NCBI GenBank assembly: GCA_914767715.1
Contig: OU612067.1
Location: 24,342,162-24,406,161 of the forward strand
Origin: Membranipora membranacea
Taxonomy: Eukaryota > Bryozoa > Gymnolaemata > Cheilostomatida > Membraniporidae
DNA length: 64,000 bases
Direction of reading: 5' to 3'
The notes beneath the pieces were generated by a model. The model had not been told where the DNA came from and ran no database searches. It was given only the letters and a program-made list of their open reading frames with translations. Both the position numbers and the translations under genes were made by a program. This document shows, piece after piece, positions 16,874-46,295 of this stretch (positions are counted from its first letter, which is position 1; each line of letters opens with the position of its first letter).

Positions 16874-19181
16874 TTAGAAACTGAACTTTATAGTGATTGT
16901 TACGCTGACGCTTATCTTCGGCCATCCTCTTTTCTGTCTGCTTAGTGCATCAGCATCTAAAAATTAACAATCATATCATAGATATGCACTCTACAGTTTA
17001 TAGAGCAAAGCAGAGCAAAGAATTTGTAATGGACATTCTTAGCTCAGTTTTGTTCATTTATTTTGATAAGCAGATTCCCGCTGACATTCGGACATGGCCT
17101 GGCTCAGGTAGCTATTGTTGATGGGCTATGTGCACCAGATTGTGTAGAGTAATATTATATTTTGCTAACCAAAATGATAGCCATGGCTGCCAAAGACATT
17201 GTGTGTGAGGAGTTGTCTTTGTAACATCAAAGTATACACAACTCCTAACTACCTAACAGTAGCCGAACCAGCCGGCATACACTGCAGCAAACTGTATAAT
17301 TTCACATATTATGTTTTTATGATGATACAGTATTGTAGTGCTCTTGTGAGGTTTGATAATGGTACTTTATTACGATGGAATCAGGCATTCAACACACCTG
17401 TGTTTGAAGACTTTGCCAACCATCTGAAACCATTGTGACATTCATCGCGTACACTTTTTGTTATGAAACTGGTGTCAGCAATTTCGCCCTCCAATACATC
17501 GAATAGCTCTTCCTCTCCCTCCAAGGTGACATTGTCATTCTCTGCAAGGAAGTTTTCGATCTTCCTTCCGCTCTCTGGTTTGGTCGGAACTGGCAGCAGA
17601 TAACATTGAGCTGAGTTGCTGTCTTTCTTATAAAAGATGCCCTGTAATAATATAATTAAAGTAATTTGGTATGGTTTGAATTTTGTTGATCTGTGTGCCA
17701 TCTATTTCTTATACTGTGCTTACATATGATGTGTGATGGTATTCGGGATAATGTTGAGAATAGTTATTTACCTTTATTTTCTATTCGGTTTCCCTTTTGC
17801 GGCCAACGAGAATATGCATGTATTGAAATCTACTTAGCGCACCTTTGTAATAGGTAAGGATGGGAAAGAATATTTTCGATTACCTGAAATCTAATGACAG
17901 TAAAAAAATACTCGGTTTGATAACCCTTTGGAGGAAAAACAAGATGCTTTCTAAGTTATGAACTTATAAATTGTAAGGCATTGTTAGTGATTAAAACTGG
18001 TCACGGTGAATTTTTCAAAGGTGGGAACTAATTGGTAAAATTGAAAAGCAATTACAATAAGGTAAGGAACTTTGACACGACGACTCATTTGAAATTTAGA
18101 TATGTTCAGTACTTACTTTGTTGTAGTCTTGGGCTTGAAGTGAGCCATCTTCCTCTCTGTAAACTACAACATTTTCTTCTTTGTAAAAGGAGATTTCTTC
18201 TGCCCGTTCCTTGATTTGCTACAAGAAAAAACATCTTGATGTGTCATTGTTCAAACTTGCTGACTATCAAACACAAGTCCTAAAGATAACCCTAATAAAG
18301 CCAAACATCACCAAAAGCAAATGTAAATTTATTGGGTCCACAGTGTAAATGCAACTTTTAGTTTAGTAATATTGTATCAAATAATGAAGTTGGTTCTGTT
18401 AATAAATTATCAGTATCTCAGTTTGCCTGTTGAACTAGACCTAGTTTAACCTTAACAAACCAAGCAGCAATTGTTTATCCTTTTACTTACTCTGTGAACT
18501 GCAAGACAAAGGGTGCATCATTCAACCAACAGAAGTGTTTGGCAACCAAAAACATGATCGGTTAATTTCTCAAAGTTTATCTTATATGTAAACTTCAATT
18601 TCATTCACAACTGACCTCCTGTAAAATTCTCTACAATGTCGTTATCCGTCGTTTTCATATAAATATAACAATCAAATTACAATGCAGCACAGGAACCAAT
18701 ATATATATATATATATACATATATTATATTATATATTTTTTTTATAATGTCCAAGTCGGTCAATGTTGGTAGGTACTAGTATGAATCTTACGATTTTTCA
18801 CTTACCCCATTTGAGTTTGATTGCAGACTTCCATGTCTCACAAACTCTGGAGTGGTATTCTTCAGGTGGCTGACAGTATTTTGCTGCCACACAGATAAGT
18901 AAATAACTGCTGACACTGTTATAGTCAGCAGCAAGGTTAACACCAGTATAGTGATCACCAGTATACGGGAGGATTGGCTGCTGCTGCTACTGGGGTTCTT
19001 CTTCTCAATATCCTTCAGAATTCAAATAACACGGAACTTTATCAAACAAATCAAAGAATGTGATAAACAAAATTTTGACTGACTGACTTTTTTTGCAAGG
19101 CTGTTCAATTTAAATTAAAAAAAAGTCCATCAATTTTACTCTCAGGAAAGTATTAGGATATCATGAGAGAAAGCTTACCAT
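16874..19181 (-). CDS. BRICHOS propeptide precursor B with RQKR-released Ser/Thr-rich peptide
   Basis: Five exons: 19179-19181 (ATG then gtaagc), 18806-19012, 18117-18218, 17398-17641 and 16874-16956, giving 212 residues. The tail is DIEKKNPSSSSSQSSR, followed by the helix ILVITILVLTLLLTITVSAV. The BRICHOS domain spans about residues 72-184 with cysteines at 117 (AQCYLL) and 172 (DECHNG) and an NVT sequon. Exon 4 ends phase 1 (SNT, then G/gt). After an intron of 441 bases the acceptor ttttag restores the frame as DADALSRQKR then GW. RQKR is a consensus furin site. The 17-residue peptide alternates Ser/Thr/Lys with Ile/Val/Phe. A truncated copy of exon 2 lies at 38896-38977. Confidence 0.85.
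16877..16927 (-). other. predicted mature peptide of precursor B
   Basis: GWPKISVSVTITIKFSF, directly after RQKR and ending at TAA. From residue 4 it strictly alternates polar (K,S,S,T,T,K,S) and hydrophobic (I,V,V,I,I,F,F) residues, so it should be an amphipathic beta strand. Net charge is only about +2, so it need not be membrane-lytic. It could also be a beta-aggregating or signalling peptide. Confidence 0.75.
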
Positions 19182-19259
19182 CTCCGCTTTTTGTCACTCC
19201 TTTGTGTATCAAACTTGTGCTGGTGAAAATGGGTGCTGTAATGATACAGTCTTGCCTCT

Positions 19260-19268
19260 CTTTATATA
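19260..19268 (-). promoter_or_regulatory. TATA box of precursor B
   Basis: TATATAAAG on the minus strand about 80 bases upstream of the B start codon. Confidence 0.6.
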
Positions 19269-19299
19269 GGTACTAAACCTATTTCCTGCACAGGAGCAG

Positions 19300-20600: not shown

Positions 20601-20639
20601 TTTTTATATACTTTTAAATAAATCTATCTTTGAGAGACC

Positions 20640-20820
20640 TATTTTCAATGTTGTTCAAATAATATTACAATAATTTAGGCTCTGTACTGAAAATGATACT
20701 ATCGTCTGCCAACAGAATCTAATAATATATCGGGATTGTACTAATGACGTCATTGATTGAATATAATAAATAAGATCGGCCCAGTACAGAGCCCTGTGGG
20801 ACTCCAATATTTATATCAAA
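20640..20820 (-). repeat. LINE reverse transcriptase remnant
   Basis: The minus strand reads INIGVPQGSVLGPILFIIFN, the hallmark GVPQGSVLGP block of non-LTR reverse transcriptases, followed in another frame by LADDSIIFSTEP (the catalytic A/Y-x-DD box). Frameshifts and stops make it a relic. The same relic is at 40390-40560, as part of the segmental duplication. Confidence 0.7.
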
Positions 20821-21336
20821 TTATCAGCTTTGAAAATTACTAATTCTTAATATTCTGCTTACGGTCGCTAAGACATGATTTCATTCAAAGGCCGGTATTA
20901 TTAGTAAGGTTATAAAAAGCAACCTTTTTTTACTAAACTTTCATGATTAATCATATGGAAGACCTTCCTGTTATCTTAAAATATCCCTTGAGTTATTCTG
21001 CTTTCATGTGTGTTTCACCTTCATTACTGTCATTACTCTTTACATGTTCGGCTGGTGACCATAATCTTGAACTAAAGATATTTATAGTCCGCATTATACC
21101 CTTTGATTGTCCTTCAAACCCTAAATATAATGTTGATAGTTTAGATCTGATTCATAGGTTTTCAAGTAGGCCTATCTATATCGATAAATATCTTGATAAC
21201 AAACAAACATACCAGAGGGTGATGGGATGACAATTTGACAAGTAACTGCCTGTTTTATTGCAGGTGGTAGTGATAATCATATTCATTGCACTGTAAACGA
21301 AATCATTACCACCTATCATGTAGCATAAATAGTCAA

Positions 21337-21560
21337 TTAATCATTCTACAGTAGGGTATAGTTTAGATAAGATTGCAAATGAGGCCTACAGCTGAAAATT
21401 AAGACTGGGGCAAGTGGTAATCCCTTTCCTTCACAAGGAAATTCTTCCCTACATAGGAAGCTATTAGTCAGATATATCATCAACTTTATCCAGATATCAG
21501 AGGAAGTCGAATTTTCTGATACAACCAATGAAAATGGATACCCTGATGTAGAAGATGTCA
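21337..21560 (+). repeat. interspersed repeat family R3, copy 1
   Basis: Starts near ATTAATCATTCTACAGTAG and contains GCTATTAGTCAGATATATCA. Related copies are at about 28190-28445 (inverted), 29885-30130 and 41957-42190. Confidence 0.5.
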
Positions 21561-22725
21561 GGTTTTGGTGTTCCATAATACTAAGCTTTTCACTACGTGA
21601 AATTCAAATTGATGGTTTCCCTATCATTATGAAACATCAGACCACATTTTCTATTTTCAGTTTTTGCTTATTCCCCTCGGACCAATCAGGAAGTTATTTT
21701 TCATCATTATCTCTTTATTTGGATAGAAAATATTTCAACAGCTTGTTTGTTCTATTATTGATTCCTGAACTTGACGTGAGTATTTACGTCTTTTTATTTG
21801 TTTCCAGTTTCACTGAACGAAACAGATGTACACATCTTCAATCCAGTTGTCTCAACCTAATCTGCATCAGTAAATCCTTATAACATTAGTAAAACTATGG
21901 AAAAGGATAATTATAGATCAGACAAACCAACCAAATAAAATCCGCCTGCCCTCGTAAATAGTGGTCGCAACGTCACCCGCGACCACACCCACAATTAAAA
22001 TGCTCATATTATTACAAAACAAGTCCAGTTCTGTATGTGCAGTAGCCAGTTTTATGAGGCAATCATGATAGGTGTGTTGTTGCAGCCAATGTTGCTTGCT
22101 TGCTATATTGCAGGGGCATAGTCCAATGCAACTGTGGCTGCTTCACAGCGGTTTGGATCCTTCTCCATTCACTGGGAGTTGTGCCTAATTGGCTATAACT
22201 GCATAGCTTTGTGCGGTACCAGGCTATTGTATTTTGTGTCAAATTATCTGCACTGATGGATTAATTTGGCGAGCAAATTCTTCAAGCCTTTAGTTGCCCT
22301 GTGAGCCTTGGTGTGTGAGGTTTTCCTCACAGCCTCAGTAAATTTGAGTTGCGTATAAACTTTAACTATATTTATCTATTTTTCTGGGCAAAGGTGATAT
22401 TTGGGGATTTACTAATGGAGCTAAAAGGTACGTTTTAAATTAAATTCTGATTTTCTGTAGGTTAAAATAATTCGACTCCAAGTTCACTTGACTTAATATT
22501 TCTTTTATTTCTCAGTACATTCAAAATCATTGATCAATCAATCAATCATGATTTCATATATTTGTCACGAGTATTAAAAAACACTATGATTTTTGTTCTG
22601 GGTGTAAACTGTCCATAAAGTAGTGTAAAAGTGTAAAAATATATAGACTAAAGCAGATTGTTATAATAAAATATGTGAGATTGTGGAAGAGCACAGGAAG
22701 GAAAAATAAAACAGCGACTAGAGAG

Positions 22726-22987
22726 TCAAAACAGGTTTGCATTTATGATGCGGACTAAAACACGATAAAACGAGTCCGTTCCCTTTGACAACCTGATCTT
22801 AGGAGCATGCAGGGGTCCTGACGGCATTGTCTCGATGATGCTATGAATAAAATGAGTCTCATCTCGATAGATCGTCAGCACATACTTCTGACATCTTAGT
22901 TTGATCGCTTCGTCTAGACTGAGTTGGATATTAGCACCGTGTTTTGTGGCTTCATTCAAAATCGATTGCATAGCATTTTGCTGAATA
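22726..22987 (-). other. possible terminal exon, unknown protein
   Basis: After an acceptor (catgtatag) 87 open codons follow, containing MQSILNEATKHGANIQLSLD, EAIKLRCQKYVLTIYRDETH and FYRVLVRIINANLF, then stop. Composition looks coding but I recognise no family. No upstream exon could be joined. Confidence 0.3.
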
Positions 22988-23199
22988 CTATACATGTGGG
23001 GATAATATAGAAAAATAGCAAACATCAATTTTGACTCAATAAAAGTTCTATAAAGCTGTTTATTTGATCTTTGAGTATATTGTTCCTTATAGTTTGCGTT
23101 AAATTGAATAGTTAATTATTGGCTGCATTTTTATTGAACGAGGCACATTTTTATGCACCACATTAATTGCACCATTTTCTATTCCAGTTTCACGGAACC

Positions 23200-26100
23200 T
23201 TCGGGGATTAGAATAAAACCTGTGATACTATACTACAAATCTCGTGTAAATTGATCAAGAAGCCTTGTAGTCCAGAACAGTGAAATTTGATAATGTCAAG
23301 TGCTAGAAGCTGACTCAACACTCTCACCAACCCACTCCAGTGTCTACGCTATCATGACGCCTACTCTACCAGTCGGCTTGTGATGCTGTACAGCTATACC
23401 TCAGCTAGCCGAGCACTCAGCTCCCTCAACATCCTCTATACCTCAACATCAGAGAGCCACAGGATTCTTACCGCTATACCACCTAAATCCTGTACTGCTA
23501 GCACAGCACACCTATGTCTCTAGATACAGCTGTCGTTATACCCCGCTGCATCCTCTCATCTTGAGTGACGACTACCCCCTTCTCGTTGTGTCGTCATTTA
23601 CTGCTACGCCACAATAATCTACTGCCGGTGATCTCGCTGCTGATGCTTTCTGACACTAACTGTAACTGTATACGTTAACCTCTTGGATTGTTTATTAATC
23701 TACCCTGTTGCTGAGGGAGAGCTGCTGGAGTCACTTTTTACACTTCAATGATTCCAGGTGTGTGCCTCGTTAGTTTTTACAGCCGTCAATTTTTTGTGCT
23801 AGGATTAGGTTGGGGCTTTTTGTGCAAGCTCGCCTTTTTCATCCAATAGTGCAGATTTTCGGGCTCATGCACTCTAGTTGCTGGGCTGTACTCGGTTGTG
23901 TGGTGATGATTGTTAGGTATTACTTACAGTGTGTGTCTTGGTATCTTGCCTCTTTGGAGCAGTTGTGTTTCTTGCCAATAATCTTTGTTGGTTTGTCTCA
24001 GCCTGGAGGGCTTTAGTATCTCGAGGTCAGAGCTCGATAAGTTGGGGGCAAAGGCGCTCAGGGAAATTTGAAATCAAAGAAATTACCGGTTAGCAGCAGA
24101 AAGAAAGTGCTTATTGATAGAATTATTCAAAACTCCTCACAGTTTCAAATCGATTCAACAGGAAGTGATTTTGAAATGGCATCTCAATCTATATTTTTTC
24201 CTGCTGCTCATAGCACTGACCAACAAGCCAGAGTATTTTCATCAGGCATTGTACAAGTAAATCAATGCTCAATAGGCGGTGCTGAAATTCAGCAACCAGC
24301 ATCACAACATGATGTTAGGGGTCGGCAGCAATCTGATAATGGTTGCGAAGACCAACAGATGCCTGGTCATAATGATAGTAATGGTCAACATGTGCAACAA
24401 GGTCAAAATCATAGACCGCTCAATGGTAGTGTAAATGGCGAGCAGCAGCAAATTCAAGTAGGATCAAATCAATCTGCCGCGCCCATGGATTATACATGCG
24501 AGCAAGATGGTAGGATAAGGATGCATATTTTTCCATCCAATGCTATTCATCAAAACAATGGAAACAATGGATGGCTTTTGAAAGGTCAAGCTGTGTCATC
24601 TGGAAACTCAATTCAGGCTAATCAACCAAAACCAGCGTTAGCTTCCACCAGTAACAATGAATGGCTTATTCGTGACTCACGTAATTTAGCTTCAGCTATT
24701 AATGATGGGCCAGTAAATAACAATGGGTGGCTATCCGATAGACAAGCTCAATCTAGGAGTAACATCCTGTTCGTAATAATGCTGCTCATGATACACAGAC
24801 TGCAGCAGCTGTCAATAGTAACCCATGGTTGTCACATGTTAGTATTGCTGTACCTTCGCATGGTGTTCACGTTAGCTCACCTCAACATGACACTCGCAGA
24901 CCCCCATCCCCTATCATGGACTTACATCAAAGTCGTATATCACCCCAGTTAACAGAACCAAACTGGCATTCTAGTACATATGAAGTAGGGGGCACAACTC
25001 CGAATATAGAGTCAGATTATGCTATGTCCTGTAGACAGGAGTTGGATTATGCCATCGCAGAGTCAATAGAGGCTAGTAAAATGCCAGTACTTCAGGGTGA
25101 TTTGCTCAAGTACAATCGCTGGGCCAGGTCATTTGATGCTTTTATATCTAAACGAAAATGGCCAGCAGCCAGTTCTAAGCTTTTCTACCTAGAAAAGCTT
25201 ACTGATGGTGATGTTAGAGAGCTAATCGAGCATTATCTAATCAGAAATTCTGAGCAAGGATATATCGAGGCATGGAAAGACCTCAATCAGACATTTATGG
25301 TAATTCTTATCTCATTGCACATGCATACAAGAAAAAACTGTTTACCTGGCCAAAATCACAAACAGAGATAATGTCGGTATAAAAAAGCTGGCAAAATTTA
25401 TCAAGCAGTGCCTAGCAATGAGAGAAGAAAGCCCACACTTTGGATTTTTTGAGGAGTATGATCGTAATCAGGGCTTAGTCAAGAATCTTTCTTCTTATAT
25501 GGCATTACGGTGGAATAATAAACTAACAGAGTAACAACATGATCAGGTGTTCCCACCGTTCTCTCGGTTTGTTGAGTTTATTGTTTTAGAATCCCACTCA
25601 GCAAAAAATCCAATTACTTCCCAGAATGCTTTGAAGGATGTTGGTAATGTAGAATCATTAGCTAAGAGTGATCAATCAAAACTTAAATCAAAATCTAACC
25701 AAAGTGATGTCAGTCATAAGACAGATGCTGAATAAGATTCGTCTAAGAAAAAATGCTGTCCTCACTGTAAATCTGATAATCACATGTATATGTCTAAGTG
25801 TGCAGATTTTAAGTCACTCTCTGTGGAGCAACATTTTTCTACAGTGAAAACTCTCAAGGCATGTAATCGCTGTTTGTCAGCTGATCACTACTTAGCTAAG
25901 TGTACCAGGGACTGGAAGTGTGGAGTTTGTAAAAGCTCGTCACATCATACTCTGGTGTACAGAGCTAAGGGTGGTCCAAGTGGAGAGACATCTCCGCCTA
26001 AAGCAGTGTCTCAGCTTCTCCATAGCACTTGTACTGATACCATTACTGATGCTCAATCTTGACTGTTTTGTAAAACTCTACCAGTGTGGATATCCACTAG

Positions 26101-27737
26101 TCATAATCCACGCAGGGAGTATGTCACTAGTAGAATGCTAAATAAAATCGGCTTGAAGAAAGAAAAATCAAAGCTGAAAATCTCAACAATGACGTCAGTT
26201 GATAAGAAATTGCATCGTGATAGTACTCCTTCTCTGAGAATTAGGGGTTTTTACAGTAGTGACCGTATACAGCTACCCAGGACATATGCTAGAAGTACAA
26301 AACCATGTGATATTTCAGACAAACCCACATATGAAAATGTTTCTGGTATTCAGCATTTATCATGCATATCTAAATATTATTCCAACACAGCAGAAATGCG
26401 AGGTGGAATTACTCGTAGGTCGTGATTGTTCTGATGCTATGGCTCCTGTAGGAGATGTTATTCCTGCCCCTCCGGGTGGTGCTTGTGCCATGAAAACCAA
26501 GCTCGGATGGTGTGTTGTTGGCCCTGACAGCAGACAAGCCAGTGACACATCAGATGATATTGGTAACTGTCACAACATTTATACTCTCGAAGATGCTCTG
26601 AACTCTGTGAGTAATATTCAGTCGCCAAAACTAGCTATATCATGTAAAACTGAGGTATCAGACATCACTCCATATGAACTCATGAACACGATTGATGGTT
26701 GTGAATTTGTCGATCATGCCGACAGTCAATCAATTTCACAGGATGATCTGAAATTTCTCAAAATTCTAGATAATGGTATTCACCAAGACAGCTCAGGTTA
26801 CCATGTCATGCCTTTACCGTTTAAACATGGTGAGACAACTCTCAAATATAGTAAACAACCAATCTTGAAGATATTTTATGGTCTTTTATCACAGTTCAAA
26901 AGTTGAAGTGCAGAATTCAGACAGCAATATACGGAGTTTGTAAAAGGTATAATATCTAGGGGTGAGGCTGAACTAGTGACAAAATCAGAACTCGAAAGCC
27001 GGGAGGGTTGGTTTTTACCTCATCACAGTGTTTATCATAAAAAGACCGGAAAAATCAGAGTCGTATTTGACCGTGGTGCGCAGGCTAATGGTGTCAATCT
27101 GAATGATGAGTTATTACAAGGCCCTGACCTAAACAATTCCCTGCTGGGAGTGTTATTGAGATTTCGGCAAAAACCAGTAGCTTTATCTTGTGACATCGAG
27201 AAGATGTATCATCGCTTCAGGGTAGTAAACGAGCTCCATGATTATCTTTGATTCGTTTGGCTTGATGATCGTGATGATCCAGCTGTATATAGAATGTGCG
27301 TCCATATTTTTGGCGCTAGATCGTCTCCCAACTGTGCTAAATATGATCTCAATAGGCTAGCAAAAGACAATGGTGAAAATTACCCACTAGCTCAGGAGAT
27401 TATTCAGCGTAATTTCTATGTTGACGATGGTTTATTTAGTGTAAATACCAGTGATGAAGCAATCGAACTTCTGAAACAAACTATGTCATTGTGTAAAAAT
27501 GGCAATCTGCATGTACACAAGCTTCTATCCAATCAACCTCAGGTGCTGGAAGCCTTCCCTCATGAGAATACAAACCACAAACAACAGAGCAATATTCAGC
27601 TGCTCGACTCAACAGAGCGAGCTCTAGGCATGCTATGGGCCTTGGACTCGGATTCATTCACCTATAAATATCAGCCTGTACCTGCTAAGAAAAAAATTAC
27701 TAGGAGGTCTGTGTTAGCTCATGTAGCTTCAGTATAG
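23200..27737 (+). mobile_element. BEL/Pao LTR retrotransposon, 5' portion, decayed
   Basis: From about 24010 there is a SAP-like motif (ELDKLGAKALREI, then RKKVLIDRI in the next frame). A Gln/Asn-rich gag follows to about 24780, then a DUF1759-like gag block (LKYNRWARSFDAFISKRKW) and zinc knuckles at about 25755-25960 (CNRCLSADHYLAKC is intact, the last knuckle has lost its Cys). A DUF1758-like protease end (VELLVGRDCSDAM, LGWCVVGPD) lies at about 26400-26530. Reverse transcriptase blocks lie at 26976-27737 with YVDDG near 27420. At least five frameshifts or stops break it. RNase H, integrase and the 3' LTR are absent. The C-rich stretch at 23200-24000 may be the 5' LTR and leader, but no second LTR exists here to prove it. 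Confidence 0.8.
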
Positions 27738-27739
27738 CT

Positions 27740-28190
27740 CAGTTGACAAATTTCTGTATTAGGCATGGATATGTCAGTTTTTGCTGACTGCAGTGTCCAA
27801 CCTAGGTTTTCCAGGAAATTGAGACCACAAATGTTTGATGGTTAAATATTTGTAAGATCCATACCAAAGAGACAGAACATCTAAAAAAATGCATGTATTC
27901 GAAGGATATTATTTGGAAACATTAATATCTCAAAAACTTTCCTATCCAGCTGTAAACTGAAGGAACTGTATGGCACAAGGAAAAAAAAATATAATTCAGT
28001 CACCTACCAAATTGATATCTTCAATAATGTCTAGCTATTGAGGGAACAAAACATTATGATAGGTCCAAGAGAAACAAGGAAAAGCTGAAAATAGAAAGAT
28101 ATCTTTGTAATGGTCGTGAAACCATAAATTGAAATGGCTCATCAATAAAAAGTTTAGTAGTTAATTATCGCACAAACTGGACAGCTTTTA
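27740..28190. other. non-coding, junction of BEL/Pao remnant
   Basis: No gene seen. The retroelement coding sequence stops abruptly near 27737 without RNase H. Confidence 0.5.
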
Positions 28191-28445
28191 GCACCAATCT
28201 ACCCTTTTTCATTGGTTGTGTCAGAAAATTTTATTATTTTATTTCCTACACTGCTCAGATATAATTGATGATTTATATCTGACTAATAGCTTACTACGCA
28301 GGACAGTATTTCCTTGTGAAAGAAAAGGGAAAGTAATTTGTCTAAAAAGTTCTGATAGGTCTAAATGTATAATCTAATATTAACTACGCTGGACTGTAGA
28401 ATGATTAATTGACCATTAATGATACCTAACTAACAGATAACAGGT
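28190..28445 (-). repeat. interspersed repeat family R3, copy 2 (inverted)
   Basis: Reverse-complement match to 29885-30130, for example CTGTAGAATGATTAATTGAC here against ATGGTCCATTAATCATTCTACAG there. Together the two could fold around the 1.4 kb between them. Confidence 0.5.
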
Positions 28446-29884
28446 ATCATAAACCATTACCTTATGATGGTGTTTACAGTACATCGATCATGCCGATCAA
28501 GACCACCTGGAAACGGACCATTACTTGTTCAATTAATACTGATGGTCTAAACCAACCACATACTGATATTATCAGCACTGTCGACATAACTAGGGTTGAT
28601 GAGGAAATAAAAAAGCATCATGCTAATTGTTTTTTTCCTCATACCTAAATTATCGTCACCAAAGAAGCAGACATATCGAATAATAGAAGTTAATGGGGCG
28701 TCGAAACTACAATGAAAATAATATTAATTTTTAGTTATGTGAGTAGAATTCAAAACACATTTGTAAATTGCTATGCAATGTTCATTACTTGGTACTGCTG
28801 AGTTATAAAACTCTCGCCGATGTTTTCTAGCAGAAGGAGAAGGAAAAAAGGGTCAAAAAAGGCTCAAGACCTTGCAGCTTGCAGGCAATATAAGCTCTGC
28901 AGGCAATAATCTTTCTAATCAAATCCCTGGCCGGCTGGTATTTACTGGGCTTCATAAAATATACAATGCATATATGTGGCATAGATATGTATCATACACA
29001 CTCTGAATAAATTATAATGCTATTGTTTTGATATGTCTAATCACATTCAGTGCGTACAGTGTCATTTAACGATGCAGTCAAACCCGTGTCCATTTAGAAT
29101 TCCAGGAAATTGTTGCACACTACTTGATTTGAAATTATCTTTGATAACCTATTACTTAATAATCATACTGGAACGCCAACAGATGCAAGGAAACATGATT
29201 TACTGCACGTACTTTGTCATGAAGGTTTTATTATGGGGTCTATTCATTGCATCCAATTATTGAAGGCAGCAGCGTAATATAATAAAAGTGGACTTGAAAC
29301 AATGTTACTGACCTCTCACCAGAGACATGATTTTTAATTTGAAAGTAATTAAAAGTCACAAAAATACAAGAGTCGTCATGTAAAAACTTTTGTACATCAA
29401 GTTAATCATCATTGTGGTAGCTTAAAAAACTTGTCTTCAATTAAATGATGCTGAAACCAACAACTTATCAAAAACTTATAAGCCTGCAGGCCGTGCGGGT
29501 CAGGTAGCTTTTTGGCCAGAATAAGCTGCAGTCTGAAGAATGCAGCCTGCAGCTTATTCTAACGCCTCTGCTGATTATGGCCCCTGAACAATTTCTCCTT
29601 TGTTTAGAGAAATCATTATGATTCCGCTTTCCTGTGAAACCAACACAAGTTTCTTGGAGACACATTGGTAACCATGATTTTGATATGAGAAAAATAACAG
29701 TTAGCGGATACCATTTGACTTCCTTATCAACCCTGATTATGGCAACAGTGTTGATAATACCGATAGGTGATGGGTTGAGATCATATGTATAAATGAGACA
29801 AGTAGTGGTTTTTCTCCAGGTAATTGTGAGCATCGGTTCAATGTAGTGTAAACATCATCATTGGTAATTATCAATGTTACCTGT

Positions 29885-31597: not shown

Positions 31598-31607
31598 TAT
31601 ATAAAGG
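31598..31607 (+). promoter_or_regulatory. TATA box of precursor C
   Basis: TATATAAAGG, 79 bases before the start codon, with a GCCAAT element at 31584-31589. The identical arrangement precedes D. Confidence 0.7.
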
Positions 31608-31685: not shown

Positions 31686-33753
31686 ATGGTAAGTTTTGAT
31701 CTTTGTTGAGTTGCTAAATTATTTGCATGTTCATTTTAGGTTTTCTTACTTGCAGTTTAACATGAGAGAATTAACAGTTGTATTCAAAAACTTTCAATAT
31801 AGTTTAAATTTCACAACCATCATACCATTTGGTCGATCTTCTTCAAGCTCAAATATACAATGAATAACCTGAATATCTCATTTTATCATTTGTGTATGAT
31901 AACAATGACCCTTTAAAAGCGATAGGTCAGCAAAGTCATTTCACATGTGTTGCTCTTTCTCTTTAAATCCAAACAGGAAACTGAAACTAAAAATACTGGT
32001 AGCAGCGGCAGTCAATCCTACCGTGTACTAGTGGTCACTACTCTAGTGTTAGTCCTGCTGCTTACGATAACAGTGTCGGCAGTTATATATTTATCTGTGT
32101 GGCAGCAAGATACTGTCAGCCAACTAAAGGATACCAGACCAGAGTTTGTAAGACATGGGACTCTGCAATCCAGCACTAATGGGGTAAGTAAAATGTATAG
32201 CATTTATTGTAAAAAATAATGATTCTTTTGGGAAAAATGCCTGCATTGGTTTGTTCACTGTTAAAGTGACAGTCCTACTAGGCATATAAGGTATGATCTT
32301 AAAGATCTCAGGCTGAAAAGTCATATGAAATGAAATAGCCTGTTTTAATTCATATGCGCTAATGACTTTTCAGCCTGAGATCTTTGAAACCATACCTAAT
32401 ATGGCCTAGTAGGACTGTCACTTTAACTGTCAATGGGCATAGTGGATCATAGTGATTTATTCATCCACCTGACCACTATGACCCACTATGATCCATGATA
32501 ATATGTTTATAAAAAGTAAAATGCTTTTTCCACAATTCTTATTTGTTTCATTATTTTTCTTTGCCCTACTTTGAATGCGTATCCCATTGCCTTGTTCTTT
32601 GCTATTAACCTTCTTTGAAGGATATATAGTGACACTCAATTGCTTATTATTGTGAAACATAAAGTAATATGGCGTTTGAAATATTGAGTTGATGATGTTT
32701 GGAATTCTAGTGGTTTGTTTAGATCAAGTTATATTACTCACCAGTTGTTTGTGATTAGTTGCAGCGTTGAGTATTTGTGAATGAATTTTTTTCACAGAAT
32801 GTCGAGGAAAGAGCAGAAGAGATCTCCTTCTACAAAGAAGATAATCTTGTAATTTACAAGGAGGAAGATGGTTCTTTTCAAGCACAAGACTACAACAAGG
32901 TGAGTGCAGTGCCTTTGGGGTGGATGAACCTGTATCATAGGGGTTTTCTGTTTGATAGTACTGTTTATTTCACAAAGTCAAATGCTCAAGTGCTCCAGGG
33001 GTTACCATGACCATTTTTCAAGCATATTACAGCAAATTCTAAGTCATTTCTGGGTTATTTTCATCAACTTAGATTCCTTCTGAAACAATATTTTTACAGG
33101 GTATTATCTATAAGAAAGATAGCGACTCAGGTCAATGCTATCTGCTGTCGGCTCCAACCAAACCAATGATCGGAAGAGAGATTGAAAACTTCCTTACAAA
33201 GCATGACAATGTCTCCTTGACGGGTGAGGAGGAGCTCTTTGATGTACTGGAGGGAGAAATTGCCGACACTAGTTTCATACCAAGTGAGGTACTCGATGTA
33301 TGTCGCAATGGCTTCAGATGGTTAGCAAAAACTTCAAACACAGGTAGATTTATGACATCATCAAAAGATTGGATCTCATTTGAACCACTGTCGGGGTATA
33401 TCATGAGGCTATATATAAGCCAAATAAAGGAAACGGCACACATCATGCGGCTGGCTTATTATACTGGTTACTATGCTATGCCATGACAAATTAGTCAGGT
33501 CAGAAGTCTTCCTTTCAAAATAATCTTTTCTGATCAAAAATTAACTAAAGAGGATTTTTCCAAAGTTTTTTCAGGTTCCCTTTCAATTATTGCTAGAAGC
33601 AACAACTGATGCTATCGATAATTTATCATTGCACAGTCTAGGATGGGCTTTATATTTTTAGATCGTAATGCAATAAGCAGACAGAAGAGAGGTTGGCTGC
33701 GTATAAGAATCAAGATAAAGATCACTATAAAGATAAGTTTCAAAAGGAGATGA
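31686..33753 (+). CDS. BRICHOS antimicrobial-type propeptide precursor C
   Basis: Exons 31686-31688 (ATG then gtaagt), 31977-32183, 32798-32899, 33100-33343 and 33662-33753 give 215 residues. Residues 2-17 are a Ser/Gly/Thr-rich cytosolic tail; 18-43 are the membrane helix (LLLTITVSAVIYLSVW). The BRICHOS domain spans about 75-185 with C117 (GQCYLL), C172 (LDVCRNG) and sequon NVS at 141. Then come DRNAISRQKR and a 20-residue cationic C-terminus. Type II topology puts the C-terminus in the lumen, where furin would free the peptide. Known: annelid arenicin-type precursors couple BRICHOS to a beta-sheet antimicrobial peptide, and ITM2 couples a type II anchor, BRICHOS and furin-released peptide. 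Inferred: host-defence peptide gene. Exon 4 stays open to 33486 if the last intron is retained, which would give a peptide-less isoform. Confidence 0.88.
32261..32426. mobile_element. 166-bp TTAA-flanked MITE in intron 2 of precursor C
   Basis: TTAA, then inverted terminal repeats AGTGACAGTCCTACTAGGC / GCCTAGTAGGACTGTCACT, then TTAA. The interior is also self-complementary (TCAGGCTGAAAAGTCAT / ATGACTTTTCAGCCTGA). TTAA target duplication suggests mobilisation by a piggyBac-type transposase. A copy at the same place in D shows the insertion predates the duplication. Confidence 0.8.
33691..33750 (+). other. predicted mature cationic peptide of precursor C
   Basis: GWLRIRIKIKITIKISFKRR, immediately after RQKR and before TGA. 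From residue 3, odd positions are L/I/F and even positions R/K/T/S, giving a textbook amphipathic beta strand. Net charge is about +8 and there is no cysteine. The coding DNA is a near-repeat of ATMAAG hexamers, which suggests growth by slippage. The D peptide is identical. Confidence 0.85.
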
Positions 33754-35650: not shown

Positions 35651-35658
35651 ATGCTTAC

Positions 35659-38113: not shown

Positions 38114-38199
38114 ACTAAAGAAAAAGACACTAACAATGGCGTTCACCCTCAATGAATATTGCCTAGAAAAATTTATACTGGATCTCTTTTGGCAAGCTC

Positions 38200-38830
38200 A
38201 CGGGAATATATATTAGCATTATAAATCTTAGTATGATGAACAGTACAAAACCTTTTTTAGAGACAAATACCTATTACATTATCACCCTGATCAATTAAGA
38301 CAAAAAATCACTTGAACTTTTAACTCTTTACGAATTCAAATACGCTCAGCAACCCGACTTGCTCATTTTAAACAACAGCTATCAAAGCACTTCAAGTCCT
38401 ATTAATTTTGATTACTTTTGTATTTTTCTTTTTCTCTCCGCTTAAGTAATTTTTTGTTCTATCACTGCATGAAAAAGATTCCTAAAGATGATTGTAGATA
38501 GACAATAAAAGTATATATATATATATATATCTAGAATAAAATCTGTGCTTTTAAGTGTCATCTGAGTGTATTTGGCCCAAACTAAGTGTCACTCAAAAAT
38601 TAGTAGTAATTTTATATGACCCACAAAAAATCATGTCTTAAATCCTCTTAAATATTCATGTTGGGCATCCTTAACCCAATAGTAATTAATGGTAGATAAA
38701 ATAGCCTGACATGGTCGGACAACTCCAGTGCAAAGATCTGCCCTACACACTGATAGCCACTATATGTGTATATATATATATACAGATACATATATATATA
38801 TATATACTATAGGCTTAATTGCTTTTTTAG
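38200..38830. other. intergenic with AT microsatellites
   Basis: No gene. (AT)n runs at about 38510-38531 and 38765-38810. The duplicated block begins just after the second run; the matching place near B (18700-18735) also carries an (AT)n run. Confidence 0.6.
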
Positions 38831-38895
38831 TAAAATGTCCAAGTTAGTCAATGTTGGTAGGAGTATGAGTAGGAGTCTTACCCATTTTCACCTAC

Positions 38896-38977
38896 CCCAT
38901 TTGAGTTTGATTGCAGACTTCGATGTCTCACAAACGCTGGTGTTGTGTTCTTCAGGTGGCTGACAGTACTTTGCTGC
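38896..38977 (-). pseudogene. truncated BRICHOS precursor exon 2 (B-derived)
   Basis: Matches the 3' part of B exon 2 (the region coding TVSHLK...EFVRHGSLQSNSNG), then breaks off before the membrane helix and joins sequence that in B lies upstream of the promoter. The donor is changed from GTAAGT to GTAGGT. Exons 1 and 3-5 are missing. Confidence 0.8.
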
Positions 38978-40389
38978 TTATAGATACTAAACCTATTTCC
39001 TGCACAGGAGCAGTATAATTGATTTCACTTGCAACTTATAGATAAATGTTGTAGTTTTCAGGTCAAGAAGCTTATTAAACCTTGTTAAAAATGGAAGGAC
39101 AAAATGAGTGGGCAAGAAATAATAGTTCAGCGAACCATCGCAACTAGAAATCTTTCTAACCCAAATTCTAATATAATATTATTGATGGGCTTGGGTGACA
39201 TTATTCACAGCCTAATGACTACATAAAGAACCTGTTATAACCAAAATCACCAGGAAACAGATAGCCTGATGATCTCATCCAGTCGTAACCTATCAATAAC
39301 AAACAGGTAATCAGGAAACACATTGGTATGTGGTTACTAGTTTCCTAGTTATTCAGGAAAAGAATGATTGATGTGGTAGAGACTTTGAATTCTTTATTTG
39401 TTCAGTTTGATTTTCTTTATACTAACATGTTTGAGTTATATGTATTGTAATGGGACTGATATATTGGTATCAGCTCTGATCTAAGTGGGTATGAGCAAAA
39501 AGCTTTGTGGGTATTTTTTTCAATGAAATTGTGACCCAAACTCAAAAAAAATAAGTGTGGTGTAGTGTCCAAAGGTGTTTCTATCACCATGATTGGTTCC
39601 TGCATCGATCAAAAATTAAAATTTACATATATTTAATTTAAAACTTAATAAACAGTGCAGCGGTATGGTCATGTAGTTAATTTAGTTTGGAATACCGCAA
39701 TCAGGCAGGACAGTCACTCTGCCATTTACACTTGGAACATAAAACCCAAAGAGAGCAGATTCAACCCCACCAGCAAGACAAGAAAGCACTGCTACCTCCG
39801 CACCCATGAGGTTTACTCCAGTGGTAAGCAGTGACCCTTCCCTCTGAAGATACTGGTTCTCTTATTTGGGCAAGTGCAAGTCTTTGGATGCCTCCTTCGA
39901 TGTGTAGTTCGCAGTTCAAGGTGGGTTTGTTTGAATGGTTCAAAAGTTTGTATTTAGATAGTATATTAATGGGCATTAATCACAATTCTTCGGAATAATC
40001 AGTGACATGGCGGTAAGGTGTAATTTTCAAGAAAACTATTGAAGCTGGTTTTTCGAGGAAGTAAATTTAGTTGAGATAACAAGCTGCAGAATACCCATAA
40101 TAAATGCCGAGAACTCGATTCCATAGATGGGGGGGGGGGGGGGGGGTAGTAAATGCTTTATAAAGACTGATTTTTTTTTATCTACATACCGTCTGGCACA
40201 AGGCATTAGGAGTGAAGTTTAATTCAAATTTTGATAATTTCTTGGAACTGCTTTGATACTAACTGTTTACCTTCTCAAAAAAAGTTTTCAGGATTTGACA
40301 AATTTTGATTGGAGTTCTAAATATAATATGAAAAGTTTTTATATAATTTTAGATAAATCTTTCTTTGAGAGACCCATGTTCAATGTGGT

Positions 40390-40560
40390 TCAAATAATAT
40401 TACAATAATTTAGGCTCTGTACTGAAAATGATACTATCGTCGGCGAACAGAATCTAATAATATATTGGGGTTGTACTAAATGAGGTCATTGATTGAATAT
40501 AATAAATAAGATCGGCCCAGAACAGAGCCCTGTGGGACTCGAATATTTATATCAAATTAT
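40390..40560 (-). repeat. LINE reverse transcriptase remnant, duplicated copy
   Basis: Counterpart of 20640-20820 within the segmental duplication, with the same GVPQGS-type relic and extra substitutions (for example CCAGAACAGAGCC for CCAGTACAGAGCC). Confidence 0.65.
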
Positions 40561-41956
40561 CAGCTTTGACCATTACTAATTCTTAATATACTGCTTACGG
40601 TCGCCAAGACATGATTTCATTCAAAGACCGGTATCATTGGTAAGGTTATAAAAAGCAACCTTTTTTACTAGACTTTCATGATTAATCATATAGAAGACCT
40701 TCCTGTTATCTTAAAATATCCCTTGAGTTATTCCGCTTTCATGTGTGTTTCACCTTCATTACTGTCATTACTCTTTACATGTTTCACTGGTGACCATAAT
40801 CTTGAAATAAACGACAATGAAAATAATATTAATTTTTAGTTATGTGAGTAGAATTCAAAACACATTTGTAAATTGCTAGGCAATGTTCAGTACTTGGCAC
40901 TGCTGAGTTATAAAACTCTTGTCGATGTTTTATAGCAGAAGGAGAAGGAAAAAAGGGTCAAAAAAGGCTCAAGACCTTGCAGCTTGCAGGCAATATAAGC
41001 TCTGCAGGCAATAATCTTTCTAATCAAATCCCTGGCCGGCTGGTATTTACCGGGCTTCATATATACAATGCATATATGTATCATACACACTCTGAATAAA
41101 TTATAATGTTATTTTTTTGATATGTCTAATCACATTCAGTGCGTGCAGTGTCATTTAACGATGCTGTCAAACCCGTGTCCATTTAGAATTCCAGGAAATT
41201 TTTGTACACTACTTGAGTCGGAATTATCTTTGATAACCTATTACTTAATAATCATACTGGAAAGCCAACAGATGAAAGGAAACACGATTTACTGCACATA
41301 CTTTGTCATAAAGGTTTTGTTATGGGGTCTATTCATTGCATCCATTATTAAAGGCAGCAGCGTAATATGATAAAAGCGGACTTAAAACAATTTTACTGAC
41401 CTCTCACCAGAGACATGATTTTTAAATTGAAAGTAATTAAAACTCACAAAAATACAAGAGTCGTCATGGAAAAAATTTTGTACATCAAGTTAATCCACAT
41501 TGTGGTAGCTTAAAAAACTTGTCTTTAATTAAATGATGCTAAAACCAACAACTTATCAAATTATAAGCCTGCAGGCCGTGCGGGTCAGGTAGCTTTTTGG
41601 ACAGAATAAGCTGCAGGCTGAAGAATGCAGCTAACGCTTCTGCTGATTTTGGCCCCTGAACAATTTCTCCTTTGTTTAGAGAAATCATTACGATTCCGCT
41701 TTCCTGTGAAACCAACACAAGTTTCTTGGAGACACATTGGTAACCATGATTTTGATATGAGAAAAAAACAGTAAACATGATACCATTTGACTTCCTTATC
41801 TACCCTAATTATGGCAACAGTGTTGATAATACCGATAGGTGATCGGTTGAGATCATATGTATTAATGAGACAAGTAATGGCTTGTCTCCAGGTTATTGTG
41901 ATCATCTGTTCAATGTAGTGTTAACATCATCATTGGGTAATTATTAATGTTACCTG

Positions 41957-42190
41957 TTTCCTGTTAGTATGGTATCACTAATGGTCCATTAATCATTCTA
42001 CAGTAGAGTGTAGTTTATATAAGATATTAATTGAGACCTATCACAGAACTATCTGGCAACTACTTTCTCTTTTTTTTCACAAGGAAATAGTCACCTACGT
42101 AGTAAGCTATTAGTCAGATATATCATCAATTAAATCTCAATAGTGCAGGAAATTACACTTTCAGGTATATCCAATGAAATTGGACAACTT
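41957..42190 (+). repeat. interspersed repeat family R3, copy 4
   Basis: Segmental-duplication partner of 29885-30130. Confidence 0.5.
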
Positions 42191-42759
42191 GGTTCTAAAA
42201 ACTTTACGGTGTATGTGTCTACTAACTATAAGGCTTTTCATGCGATGGAATTATAATTGATAGCTATTTACCGCTGCTAAGCAATAAATGACATTTTCTA
42301 TTTTCAGCTTTTGCTCATTTATCATTGACCTATCAGAATGTTATGTTGCCGACACAGGCTACATATTAATTAAGATATTTTACTGATAGGTAACTGAGTT
42401 TATAATTACGGATATATGTCCTTGCCCAATTAAATTCCTCCAGAATACAGCTGGACAGATTTTATCATGTTTCCCAATACATGTACTATTCTTCAAATAC
42501 ATGCATTTCTTAGACTTTCAGTCTCTCGGCATCGATCTTTTAAATATTTACATATCAAATATTAGATTTTGTGGTCTAACTTTGTTTGCAAAGCCAGGTT
42601 GGCGATTCAATTGGCAAAAACTGACAATTCCATCCCTCAATGGAGTAAGTTGTCATCTCAGCCTTCACCTTCAGACCGTTTGAAATGGATCACCTACCTA
42701 ACAACTTGGTATAATAGAGAGAAGTTATGCTCGACAGTCCACATCTACTCATTCTTTAT

Positions 42760-42900
42760 TGGGGATGGTGAGATGGCTATTTATTGCTATTTATTGCTAT
42801 TTACTGCCAGGCGATAAGTGCCGCAGGAGTTGTGGGTTCGAGTCCCACTGGGTGAGTTTTATTATTGATTGTTCCAGCCCCCAGCACCCTCAGATATGTA
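42760..42900 (+). repeat. tRNA-derived SINE, second copy
   Basis: Contains the T-arm GTGGG-TTCGAGT-CCCAC and the CCCCCAGCACCCTC tail. The A-box region is replaced by three copies of TATTTATTGC/TATTTACTGC. It is present in the duplicated block but not at the corresponding place in the source block. Confidence 0.6.
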
Positions 42901-43162
42901 CCTCTCCTGTGTACTTGTCTACTGACTGACTCATGGAAAGACATGTGACAGCATGGAGATACATGCTGACAAGCTGGAAAGACAGCTAAACCTACTACAA
43001 GGAGTCCCAGCAATGGGCCATGTAAGGCCAATAACACTAACACGTATGCTGTGTTTCATAGAGTGGCGATAATGGATTGGAATGTGCTGTTGGATGAGAG
43101 AACACAATTCTGAGAAGTGAATAGCGGGTTATCTAATTAGCGCCATCGACCCATTCTTTATT

Positions 43163-43275
43163 GAGGATGGTGAGACGGCGCAATCGATTAGTGTCGCAGG
43201 AGTTGTGGGTTCGAGTCCCACTGGGGAGCTTTCATTGTTGATTGTTCCGCCCCCAGCACCCTCGGGTGTATACCT
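43163..43275 (+). repeat. tRNA-derived SINE, duplicated copy with internal deletion
   Basis: Partner of 30652-30790. A stretch between two ATCG..TTAG-like direct repeats has been lost, removing part of the A-box arm. Confidence 0.6.
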
Positions 43276-44099
43276 CTCCTCTCAGTCAGAAAGACTGTTA
43301 ATGAGATTGTCATAGAAACGTATTGAGACTTGCTTTTACACTTCCTAACACTGTCCTAGGTTTTAATTGGCTGTTCTGCAGGGATAAAAAGGATAGGAAG
43401 TTATACAAAATTATCTAATTCTTACTACAAACAAAAATTGATATTATACCATCCCAGTCAGGTACAAGAATATAGCCCTTTAATCAATGGTTAAATGGAT
43501 TTCACACTTGATTATCAATCCTTTAGTTACTAATTAAGAATGTGACAGATACCCTTCATTCGATGGAATTGGCTCATAATCAAAATGAATCTTTGTTAAC
43601 ATGAAGGAGCTTAAGACAAGGGCAACCCGGTTTCCCATTGTGAATCTTAATATCAGTGGCACAGCCTGTGAAATGCAATGCAGAAATATTATTAGTTGCT
43701 GCTTTAACAGAAACCCCAACAATCCGTTATGATCAGCATGCCCAATGACAAACATAGTCTTTGGATGTAAGCCATCATGTCTCCTTGCACCAGTGGCTGT
43801 ATGTGTTTTGCTTTTGAGTCATGTTGTTTAAATTTTCTGCACCTTAGATTGTGTTACTACATATTTTTTGTGCTTTTCGGAAAAAATAAATTGCATCTTC
43901 CTGATTAAGGTGCCATTCACCGTATAAAATTCAAAGACTAAAGACTATCACTTGACAGTTTATCGCTTTGGGTAATTGGACTTTCCTTGTGATATCACCA
44001 AATAGGCTTGACATTAAATTGTTTTGATTATAATTTTACTTAGCAACTAATGAGGAAATGAGAGCAAAATGATTTTGGATCGTTTGCCAATATTTTGCC

Positions 44100-44109
44100 T
44101 ATATAAAGG
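44100..44109 (+). promoter_or_regulatory. TATA box of precursor D
   Basis: TATATAAAGG at the same distance from the start codon as in C, with the upstream GCCAAT element preserved. Confidence 0.7.
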
Positions 44110-44187
44110 ACAGCTCTATATTGAAGTTTCATTGGAGCAACCAGGTACACCAGAACAAGTCATATACTGAACAGTGAAAGAGAGAAA

Positions 44188-46295
44188 ATGGTAAGTTTTG
44201 ATTTTTGTTGAGTTGCTAAATTACTTGCATGTTCATTTTAGGTTTTTTTACTTGCAGTTTAACATGAGAGACTTAACAGTTGTACTCAAAAACTTTCAGT
44301 ACAGTTTAAATTTCACATCCATCATATCATTAGGTGGATCTTCTTCAAGCTCAGATATACAATGAATAACCTGAATATCTCATTTTTTCATTCGTGTACG
44401 ATAATAATGACCTTTTAAAAGCAATAGGTCAGCAAAGTCATTTCACATGTGTTGCTTTTTCTCTTTAAATCCAAACAGGAAACTGAAACTAAAAATACTG
44501 GTAGCAGCGGCAGTCAATCCTACCGTGTACTAGTGGTCACTACTCTAGTGTTAGTCCTGCTGCTTACGATAACAGTGTCGGCAGTTATATATTTATCTGT
44601 GTGGCAGCAAGATACTGTCAGCCAACTAAAGGATACCAGACCAGAGTTTGTAAGACATGGGACTCTGCAATCCAGCACCAATGGGGTAAGTAAAATGTAT
44701 AGCATTTATTGTAAAAAATAATGATTCTTTTGGGAAAAATGCCTGCATTGGTTTGTTCACTGTTAAAGTGACAGTCCTGCTAGGCATATAAGGTATGATC
44801 TTTAAGATCTCAGGCTGAAAAGTCATATGAAATAAAATAGCCTGTTTTAATTCATATGCGCTAATGACTTTTCAGCCTGAGATCTTTGAAACCATACCTA
44901 ATATGGCCTAGTAGGACTGTCACTTTAACTGTCAATGGGCATAGTGGATCATAGTGATTTATTCATCCACCTGACCACTATGACCCACTATGATCCATGA
45001 TAATATGTTTATAAAAAGTAAAATGCTTTTTCCACAATTCTTATTTGTTTCATTTTTTTTCTTTGCCCTACTTTGAATGCGTATCCCATTGCCTTGTTCT
45101 TTGCTATTAACCTTCTTGGAAGGATATATAGTAACACTCAATTGCTTATTATAGTGAAACATAAAGTAATATGGCGTGTGACATATTGAGTTGATGATGT
45201 TTGGAATTCTAGTGGTTTTTTTGAGATCAAGTTATATTACTAGCAAGTCGAATGTCATTAGTTGAAGCGTTAAGTATTTGTGAATGAATCTTTTTCACAG
45301 AATGTCGAGGAAAGAGCAGAAGAGATCTCCTTCTACAAAGAAGATAATCTTGTGATTTACAAGGAGGAAGATGGTTCTTTTCAAGCACAAGACTACAACA
45401 AGGTGAGTGCAGTGCCTTTGGGGGGGATGAACCTGTATCATAGGGGTATTCTGTTTGATAGTACTGTTTATTTCACAAAGTCAAATTCTTAACTTCAATA
45501 AAAAAAAGGAAATTGAATCACAAATAATTCACTGCTCCAGGGGTTTCCATGACCATTTGTCAAGCATATTACAGCAAATTCTAAGTCATTTCTGGGTTAT
45601 TTTCATCAATTTAGATTCCTTCTGAAACAATATTTTTACAGGGTATTATCTATAAGAAAGATAGCGACTCAGGTCAATGTTATCTGCTGTCGGCTCCAAC
45701 CAAACCAATGATCGGAAGAGAGATTGAAAACTTCCTTACAAAGCATGACAATGTCTCCTTGACGGGTGAGGAGGAGCTCTTTGATGTACTGGAGGGAGAA
45801 ATTGCCGACACTAGTTTCATACCAAGTGAGGTACTCGATGTATGTCGCAATGGCTTCAGATGGTTAGCAAAAACTTCAAACACAGGTAAATTTATGACAT
45901 CATCAAAAGATTGGATCTCATTTGAACCACTGTCGGGGTATATCATGAGGCCATATATAAGCCAAATAAAGGAAACGGCACACATCGTGCGGCTGGCTTA
46001 TTATACTGGTTATTATGCTATGCCATGACAAATTAGTCAGGACAGAAGTCTGCCTTTCAAAATAATCTTTTCTAATCAAAAATTAACTAAAGAGGATTCT
46101 TCCAAAGTTTTTTCAGGTTCCCTTTCAATTATTGCTAGAAGCAACAACTGATGCTATCGAAAACTTATCATTGCACAGTCTAGGATGGGCTTTATATTTT
46201 TAGATCGTAATGCAATAAGCAGACAGAAGAGAGGTTGGCTGCGTATAAGAATCAAGATAAAGATCACTATAAAGATAAGTTTCAAAAGGAGATGA
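44188..46295 (+). CDS. BRICHOS antimicrobial-type propeptide precursor D, same protein as C
   Basis: Exons 44188-44190, 44479-44685, 45301-45402, 45642-45885 and 46204-46295 give a 215-residue protein that I read as identical to C. Only synonymous differences are visible (for example GTA/GTG in exon 3 and TGC/TGT at the first BRICHOS cysteine). All splice sites and the RQKR-GW junction are intact, and the last donor (CAG/gtaaat) is better than that of C (CAG/gtagat). Promoter, TATA box and 3' flank are preserved, so D should be a working second gene raising dosage of the same peptide. Confidence 0.88.
44763..44928. mobile_element. 166-bp TTAA-flanked MITE in intron 2 of precursor D
   Basis: Same element at the same place as 32261-32426, inherited through the duplication. 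Confidence 0.8.
46233..46292 (+). other. predicted mature cationic peptide of precursor D
   Basis: Encodes the same 20 residues as 33691-33750, following RQKR and ending at TGA. Confidence 0.85.

Follow-up and report, generated by a model that had tools for sequence, protein, structure and literature searches.

Four paralogous genes with a common exon plan

The 64,000-nucleotide stretch of contig OU612067.1 analysed here (the window) carries four paralogous genes, A to D, and a truncated fifth copy (Table 1). Their predicted products are membrane-anchored precursors with a BRICHOS-like domain and a short C-terminal peptide, here called the cargo. What is newly found, as read from the genome sequence, is a varied repertoire of such cargo in one genome, diverging faster than its predicted membrane-anchored BRICHOS-like chaperone.

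All four genes fit five-exon models in which every intron is GT-AG and the intron phases are 0, 0, 0 and 1. Exon 1 consists of the ATG only, exon 2 encodes a tail, the anchor and a stem, exons 3 and 4 encode the BRICHOS-like domain, and exon 5 the cutting site and the C-terminal peptide. At the protein level, B is 73% and A 56% identical to C, and the anchor LLLTITVSAVIYLSVWQQ is identical in A, B and C. Three exon junctions proposed in an earlier sequence-only reading (17398/16956, 33343/33662 and 45885/46204) proved to be exon ends of complete GT-AG models, which also bear out the succession of tail, single anchor, BRICHOS-like domain, RQKR and C-terminal peptide that had been described for B, C and D. 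The sequence likewise confirms a charge of +8 over 20 residues for the peptides of C and D, as well as the lack of cysteine in the peptides of B, C and D: each of the four precursors has two cysteines, both inside the BRICHOS-like part. In C, the acidic pro-part has a net charge of -9 against +8 for the peptide. Gene A, which like the truncated fifth copy was not part of the earlier reading, has the same anchor and domain and a different peptide. The predicted exons, reading frames, selection, hydrophobic anchor, Asp/Cys triad, cutting site and cargo variation can thus be taken as established at the level of the sequence.

Table 1. Features of the BRICHOS-like genes in the window (positions count from its first letter; exons in order of transcription)
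Feature	Position	Strand	Details
Gene C	31686..33753	+	exons 31686-31688, 31977-32183, 32798-32899, 33100-33343, 33662-33753; 215 amino acids; GT-AG introns, open reading frame, purifying selection versus D
Gene C, transmembrane helix	32025..32102	+	about residues 18-43; borders by eye from the sequence, predictor not used
Gene C, BRICHOS-like domain (exons 3-4)	32861..33321	+	Pfam match of residues 101-174 below cut-off; D/C spacing; family profile match to ITM2B
Gene C, Asp101	32888-32890	+	sequence
Gene C, Cys117	33136-33138	+	sequence
Gene C, Cys172	33301-33303	+	sequence
Gene C, RQKR site	33679..33690	+	sequence
Gene C, predicted released peptide	33691..33750	+	GWLRIRIKIKITIKISFKRR; 20 amino acids, +8, behind ...SRQKR
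Gene D	44188..46295	+	exons 44188-44190, 44479-44685, 45301-45402, 45642-45885, 46204-46295; protein identical to C
Gene D, predicted released peptide	46233..46292	+	GWLRIRIKIKITIKISFKRR, identical to that of C; 20 amino acids, +8
Gene B	16874..19181	-	exons 19181-19179, 19012-18806, 18218-18117, 17641-17398, 16956-16874; 212 amino acids
Gene B, predicted released peptide	16877..16927	-	GWPKISVSVTITIKFSF; 17 amino acids, +2; RQKR at 16928-16939
Gene A	1122..3795	-	exons 3795-3793, 3628-3422, 2633-2538, 2097-1854, 1225-1122; 217 amino acids; fourth family member
Gene A, C-terminal peptide	1125..1205	-	QTTTTTKTTVILPDGTVVITEETVTKQ; behind TKR; Thr-rich, net -1, without alternation
Truncated fifth copy	38786..38977	-	B-type remnant with portions of exon 2 and intron 2; a deletion joins it to the promoter-side flank
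TATA box, gene C	31598..31603	+	88 nucleotides 5' of the ATG; pattern match only
TATA box, gene D	44100		same distance as in C; pattern match only
TATA box, gene B	19268		87 nucleotides; pattern match only
TATA box, gene A	3936		141 nucleotides; pattern match only

Membership of the BRICHOS family

The Pfam BRICHOS model matches 14 of the 17 aligned family domains at an E value of 0.1 or better (best 1.5e-4, 22.3 bits), and BRICHOS is the first-ranked Pfam family for eight of the ten relatives scanned, being third for one and absent for one. When a profile of the 17 members was compared with 177,635 PDB sequences, ITM2B (8rnu) ranked first (E 0.032), with the Asp, the first Cys and the last Cys in register. 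These three residues are invariant across the 17 aligned members. Their spacing in C is 16 (D101-C117) and 55 (C117-C172), as compared to 16 and 59 in ITM2A, whose triad is D144, C160 and C219; one Asp and two Cys at near-fixed spacing are described as conserved in the domain (PMC2751770; statements on published work refer, here and below, to excerpts of the papers cited). The lengths of the hydrophobic region, linker, BRICHOS domain and C-terminal region, with borders drawn by eye, fit the ranges in Table 1 of the same paper.

Several results weigh against this assignment. None of the scanned members attains the Pfam cut-off of 25 bits (gene B scores 16.3 bits whole and 18.2 bits for the domain alone), the domain of C ranks the unrelated CdiI (E 0.025) over BRICHOS (E 0.036), and gene A alone yields no Pfam BRICHOS match. 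A Pfam search across the whole genome yielded no match at 0.001, its 14 controls being likewise matchless, and the sole other PDB match of the family profile is a designed minibinder (E 0.22). Structure models of exon 4 are too poor for a fold test (predicted local distance difference test scores of 47 and 55); in these low-confidence models, the order of elements E-E-H-E-H-E fits BRICHOS and 2yad appears only at rank 21 (E 5.4). The hidden Markov model search of the domain that the earlier reading had put forward speaks for BRICHOS by the number of members matched and falls short by their scores, all below the cut-off. Taken together, these sequence comparisons indicate that the domain very probably belongs to BRICHOS, without the Pfam cut-off being reached. 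Since the scanned members score below that cut-off, standard annotation may miss the family.

Selection on the copies and statistics of the peptide

Genes C and D differ at 57 of 1420 intron positions but at 3 of 648 coding positions (Fisher p 6.6e-7); the three coding changes are all synonymous, and none falls among the 92 positions of the peptide exon. Such few and silent coding changes, set against the divergence of the introns, indicate that both copies are kept under protein-level constraint; homogenisation of the exons only is less likely. Between B and C, omega is 0.15-0.26 in the exons of the anchor and domain and 0.98 in the peptide exon, site included. Seven residues of the strand are substituted between B and C, and the hydrophobic or polar class is unchanged at all seven. 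A strand charge of at least +6 was reached in only 2-11 of 5000 simulations starting from B, so that the gain of charge leading to C looks selected, provided that B resembles the ancestor.

The strict hydrophobic/polar alternation noted in the earlier reading holds in one respect: its placement behind RQKR in paralogous genes is beyond chance, but the length of the run alone is within chance. Random sequence of 64 kb contains about 14 alternating runs of at least 12, with a longest run of 13 to 20 (20 Markov controls), and alternation length as stand-alone proof was rejected because these controls give comparable runs. The observed beta-moment was matched by 9 of 20,000 composition shuffles for B and 25 of 20,000 for C, as compared to 16,135 of 20,000 for gene A.

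A wider family with a varied cargo repertoire

A search with B of the assembly holding the window (339 Mb, 18 contigs) returned 103 matching stretches with E no higher than 10; of these, 80 (hand count), on eight contigs, had an E value of 0.001 or below. The 20 kb to the left of gene A hold a further two genes, along with remnants. Besides A to D, we retained 34 exon-4 loci, i.e., 30 after removal of two duplicates and one spurious match, and four found later. The relatives share the exon plan of A to D, and of the 30 loci outside the window, 16 showed the anchor exon at E <0.001 in the DNA searched. At many loci, a phase-1 donor ends exon 4, and a few hundred bases on follows a terminal exon that encodes a basic site and then a short peptide. 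A terminal RxKR exon is present in 14 of 29 genes, one of which (L044) looks spurious, against a mean of 0.60 and a maximum of 4 in shuffled sequence and one of 29 on the reverse strand. Terminal exons of the D..KR type are also found in 14 of 29 genes (shuffled mean 1.35, maximum 7; reverse strand 4).

The cargo of 22 genes was tabulated, hand-picked from the scan candidates, L017 and L032 being less certain picks. D, L009, L034, L037, L047, L049, L052, L053 and L055 were left out despite a candidate, as duplicates, decayed copies, unclear cases (L047, without a dibasic site) or later finds (L052, L053 and L055). The predicted cargo comprises cationic or neutral strands, poly-Thr, poly-Ile/Val and Cys-rich peptides; examples are GWEISITITIPF, EWHIGICIVIAKF, VVPIIIVIVIVVTTT, QTVTTTTTTTITVSTTTTISKQ and QAVTPKVTIEVEVEVEVEIVVVGNRCYINALRVRVCVTVTIEKRKRK, and, for the Cys-rich kind, ACSYSCDLEYDSSCKCYKAKCGFKC. 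Cargo identity is lower than exon-4 identity in 219 of the 231 pairs of tabulated genes, and the 71 pairs with exon 4 at least 50% identical have a mean identity of 0.62 in exon 4 and 0.26 in the cargo. In 11 further pairs, omega of the cargo exceeds that of exon 4 in all eight that were computable, one trivially (0.30 versus 0.28); these pairs, which have members in common, are not independent, and one member, L007, is decaying. On the exon-4 tree, which has a midpoint root only and in which long branches may meet, a branch with support 96/90 sets the RxKR-strand genes apart, and the Cys-rich genes are grouped with 94/96. These supported branches suggest that the class of cargo is mostly inherited with the chaperone, and that the cysteine-free strand is therefore one branch of a family that also holds Cys-rich cargo.

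Some loci deserve mention in their own right. The terminal exon of L018, about 616 bases past the exon-4 donor, encodes an acidic alternating strand, VEVEVEVEVEI, followed by the basic LRVRVCVTVTIEKRKRK and two cysteines, possibly a charge-paired hairpin. The cargo of L045 (reverse strand) is His/Cys-rich with GQPG repeats and possibly metal-binding. In L039 (reverse strand), exon 4 runs on without an intron through a KR site and GQPG repeats to a Cys-rich tail. L007 (C4:22.2 Mb) is of B type, with a stop in exon 3 and a decayed exon 2; its cargo exon, GWPKISVSVRINIKFSF, is still close to that of B.

History and surroundings of the locus

The segment 19265-21076 matches 38979-40811 at 92.6%, and 28704-35026 matches 40809-47500 in two blocks, at 88% and 93%. 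The head-to-head pair of B and C thus seems to have been duplicated, with the second B copy cut down through deletion to the remnant at 38786-38977. About 7.6 kb (21077-28703) is missing from the second duplicated segment; its long open reading frames (ORFs) resemble, by eye, those of a BEL/Pao-type retrotransposon, and 21320-21712 and 28033-28425 are inverted relatives of each other. Farther on, at 51752-54922 on the minus strand, two caspase-domain ORFs (Peptidase_C14, E 8.6e-9 and 8.2e-5) lie near an ankyrin-repeat ORF (Ank_2, E 4.7e-7), possibly forming one ankyrin-caspase gene. A long tandem array at 16195-16470 reads (DL)n, (RL)n and (SL)n in three frames.

The CpG dinucleotide has an observed/expected ratio of 0.46 across the window (1-64000) and of 0.34-0.51 in coding exons. 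Such uniform depletion, coding exons included, points to genome-wide methylation; a heavily methylated genome has been reported for Amphimedon (PMC7385117). The nearby ankyrin-repeat sequence is reminiscent of sponge proteins; the animal may also be a cnidarian, a group with large reported BRICHOS sets, or some other invertebrate.

Proposed function of the precursors

The best explanation, which we hold with moderate confidence, is that these genes form a divergent family of BRICHOS pro-proteins, made as type II precursors, and that the freed peptide of C and D damages microbial membranes. In the course of events that we infer, from splicing in vivo and membrane orientation to chaperoning, cleavage and antimicrobial action, each gene would give rise to a type II membrane precursor. 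Throughout secretion, its lumenal BRICHOS-like domain, with one disulfide and the conserved Asp, would hold a beta peptide that is prone to aggregate and has a last exon to itself, until a furin-like protease releases this peptide by cleavage at RQKR or KR. The free 20-residue peptide of C and D would most likely fold into an amphipathic strand at microbial membranes, which it would damage; that of B would be a weaker relative with little net charge, and that of A a distinct peptide without cationic character. The steps of chaperoning and then cleavage are taken from known BRICHOS biology (PMC9714404; PMC10182729; PMC9627735), and, should the animal be a sponge, a furin has been reported in Amphimedon (PMC6850559).

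In C and D (+8), the basic site precedes a C-terminal peptide that is cationic and amphipathic; the same holds weakly for B (+2) and does not hold for A (-1). An antimicrobial role is thus plausible for the C/D peptide, as judged from its sequence, and is weakened family-wide because only this cargo is strongly cationic; the host-defence role that the sequence-only reading had proposed survives within these limits. The following observations weigh against parts of the explanation given above. Over the 22 tabulated genes, the charge of the cargo ranges from -6 to +8 and is above +3 only in C (with D), strong positive charge being peculiar to these two; a cationic peptide as the rule of the family was rejected on these charges. 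The cargo of the relatives is neutral, acidic or purely Ile/Val/Thr, and a general role in carrying beta cargo fits better than antibiotics. That B and C keep the same hydrophobic/polar pattern is of marginal significance (simulation p ~0.05-0.07), and the anchor exon was not found, within the DNA searched, at the C6 Cys-rich loci L040, L041, L048 and L049. For the family as a whole, a diversified defence repertoire and a functional amyloid or matrix would both fit, defence being favoured for C and D.

A first alternative, which we regard as rather unlikely, is that the cargo is selected for assembly into beta fibrils, be it as an adhesive, a skeletal or gel matrix or for the agglutination of bacteria, with BRICHOS blocking assembly until release; the +8 charge of C and D would then tune assembly or binding to an acidic matrix. 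The almost pure beta-branched cargo VVPIIIVIVIVVTTT, QNTTVIIIIIER and QTVTTTTTTTITVSTTTTISKQ, the collagen-like GQPG repeats of L039 and L045, the lack of conservation of cargo charge and the anti-amyloid chaperone activity of BRICHOS (PMC10182729; PMC9627735) all agree with such assembly, but some relatives have Cys-rich, defensin-like cargo, and a cargo exon that outpaces its chaperone in divergence is less expected for a structural material. Still less probable is a role in signalling or at the cell surface, in which the precursor would function mostly in uncleaved form or as a peptide ligand: conservation is highest in the anchor and stem (LLLTITVSAVIYLSVWQQ, PEFVRHG), beyond the needs of a signal sequence, but the cargo is hypervariable among paralogues whose exon 4 is 74-82% identical, unlike a receptor ligand. 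Finally, a different C-terminus through retention of intron 4 is highly improbable: exon 4 is open for 47 codons into this intron in both C and D, and exon 4 of L039 does read through to a KR site and a Cys-rich tail, but C and D have three amino-acid differences in that stretch, as compared to 0/92 base changes in the spliced peptide exon, and the read-through of A and B stops within eight codons.

Comparison with known BRICHOS systems

The precursors of arenicin, alvinellacin and capitellacin share with the family discussed here an acidic BRICHOS pro-part, a basic site and a C-terminal beta peptide; they differ in the signal peptide present in most of them and in their disulfide-bonded hairpin, since the peptides of A to D have no cysteine. 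The ITM2/BRI proteins resemble the present precursors in their type II anchor, BRICHOS domain, furin-type release, D-C spacing of 16 and top rank in the PDB profile search (8rnu), but have two conserved C-terminal cysteines (PMC2751770), of which the C-terminal regions of A, B, C and D have none. The suggestion that the family is new in combining both layouts was rejected, the same arrangement being generic to BRICHOS according to these sources (PMC2751770; PMC9714404; PMC10182729).

The closest likeness is found in the annelid Heteromastus filiformis, for which 13 BRICHOS peptides, five precursors with a transmembrane helix and two cysteine-free families have been described (PMC10745061, 2023), so that the earlier statement that no description of such a cluster was known is too strong. 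HfBRI-20/-23 'probably form' an amphiphilic beta-hairpin and are likened to (VR)n peptides (PMC10745061). They share with C and D a transmembrane BRICHOS precursor, a dibasic site and a short, highly amphiphilic beta peptide of similar length and without cysteine, and H. filiformis also has several unrelated cargo types within one species. As far as the published description goes, the model of HfBRI-20/-23 is a salt-bridged hairpin, whereas the C/D peptide is an uninterrupted alternating strand with no evident turn; the present family was moreover read from a genome, decayed copies included. In corals, 238 BRICHOS sequences, strongly stress-induced, were identified in the transcriptomes of 15 species (PMC5299404, 2017). 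They resemble our family, again by description, in their number in a non-annelid animal group and in the Cys pair, but are presented in the excerpts as a domain only, without a cargo repertoire. The annelid and coral papers had thus already made known the architecture, cargo without cysteine and large BRICHOS sets outside annelids. In Alvinella, it is the chaperone that diversifies, not the peptide (PMC5431198), whereas in the present family the peptide exon is the faster part. Among the papers listed in literature searches on sponges, cnidarians, mollusks, brachiopods and tunicates, which covered few subscription papers, took most papers by their listing and in part brought up no mention of BRICHOS, we found no report of such a cargo repertoire outside annelids; for sponges, a 2025 review knows only one antimicrobial peptide (PMC11767717).

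Designed (IR/IK)n peptides such as IK8 resemble the C/D peptide in being beta strands of alternating Ile and Arg/Lys, and are antibacterial, the all-D beta-sheet form D-IK8 (irikirik) inhibiting staphylococci (PMC4942614); they differ in being synthetic, eight residues long and without a precursor. The C/D peptide would be a natural counterpart of such designed IRIK-type antibiotics.

Implications

To our knowledge, the natural cargo of BRICHOS is known in few families. It is possible, although we remain doubtful, that we are dealing with a non-bilaterian animal in which an anchored BRICHOS chaperone carries exon-coded, fast-diverging beta peptides of cationic, neutral, poly-Thr, poly-Ile/Val, collagen-like and Cys-rich kinds. 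If so, BRICHOS-carried effector peptides would be older than the annelid antimicrobials, and the animal would possess a large arsenal for defence or of functional amyloids. In any case, this one genome offers a score or more of predicted chaperone/cargo pairs, from a +8 amphipathic strand to pure Ile/Val, with which it can be tested directly whether the BRICHOS domain is fitted to its own cargo or acts as a general holder.

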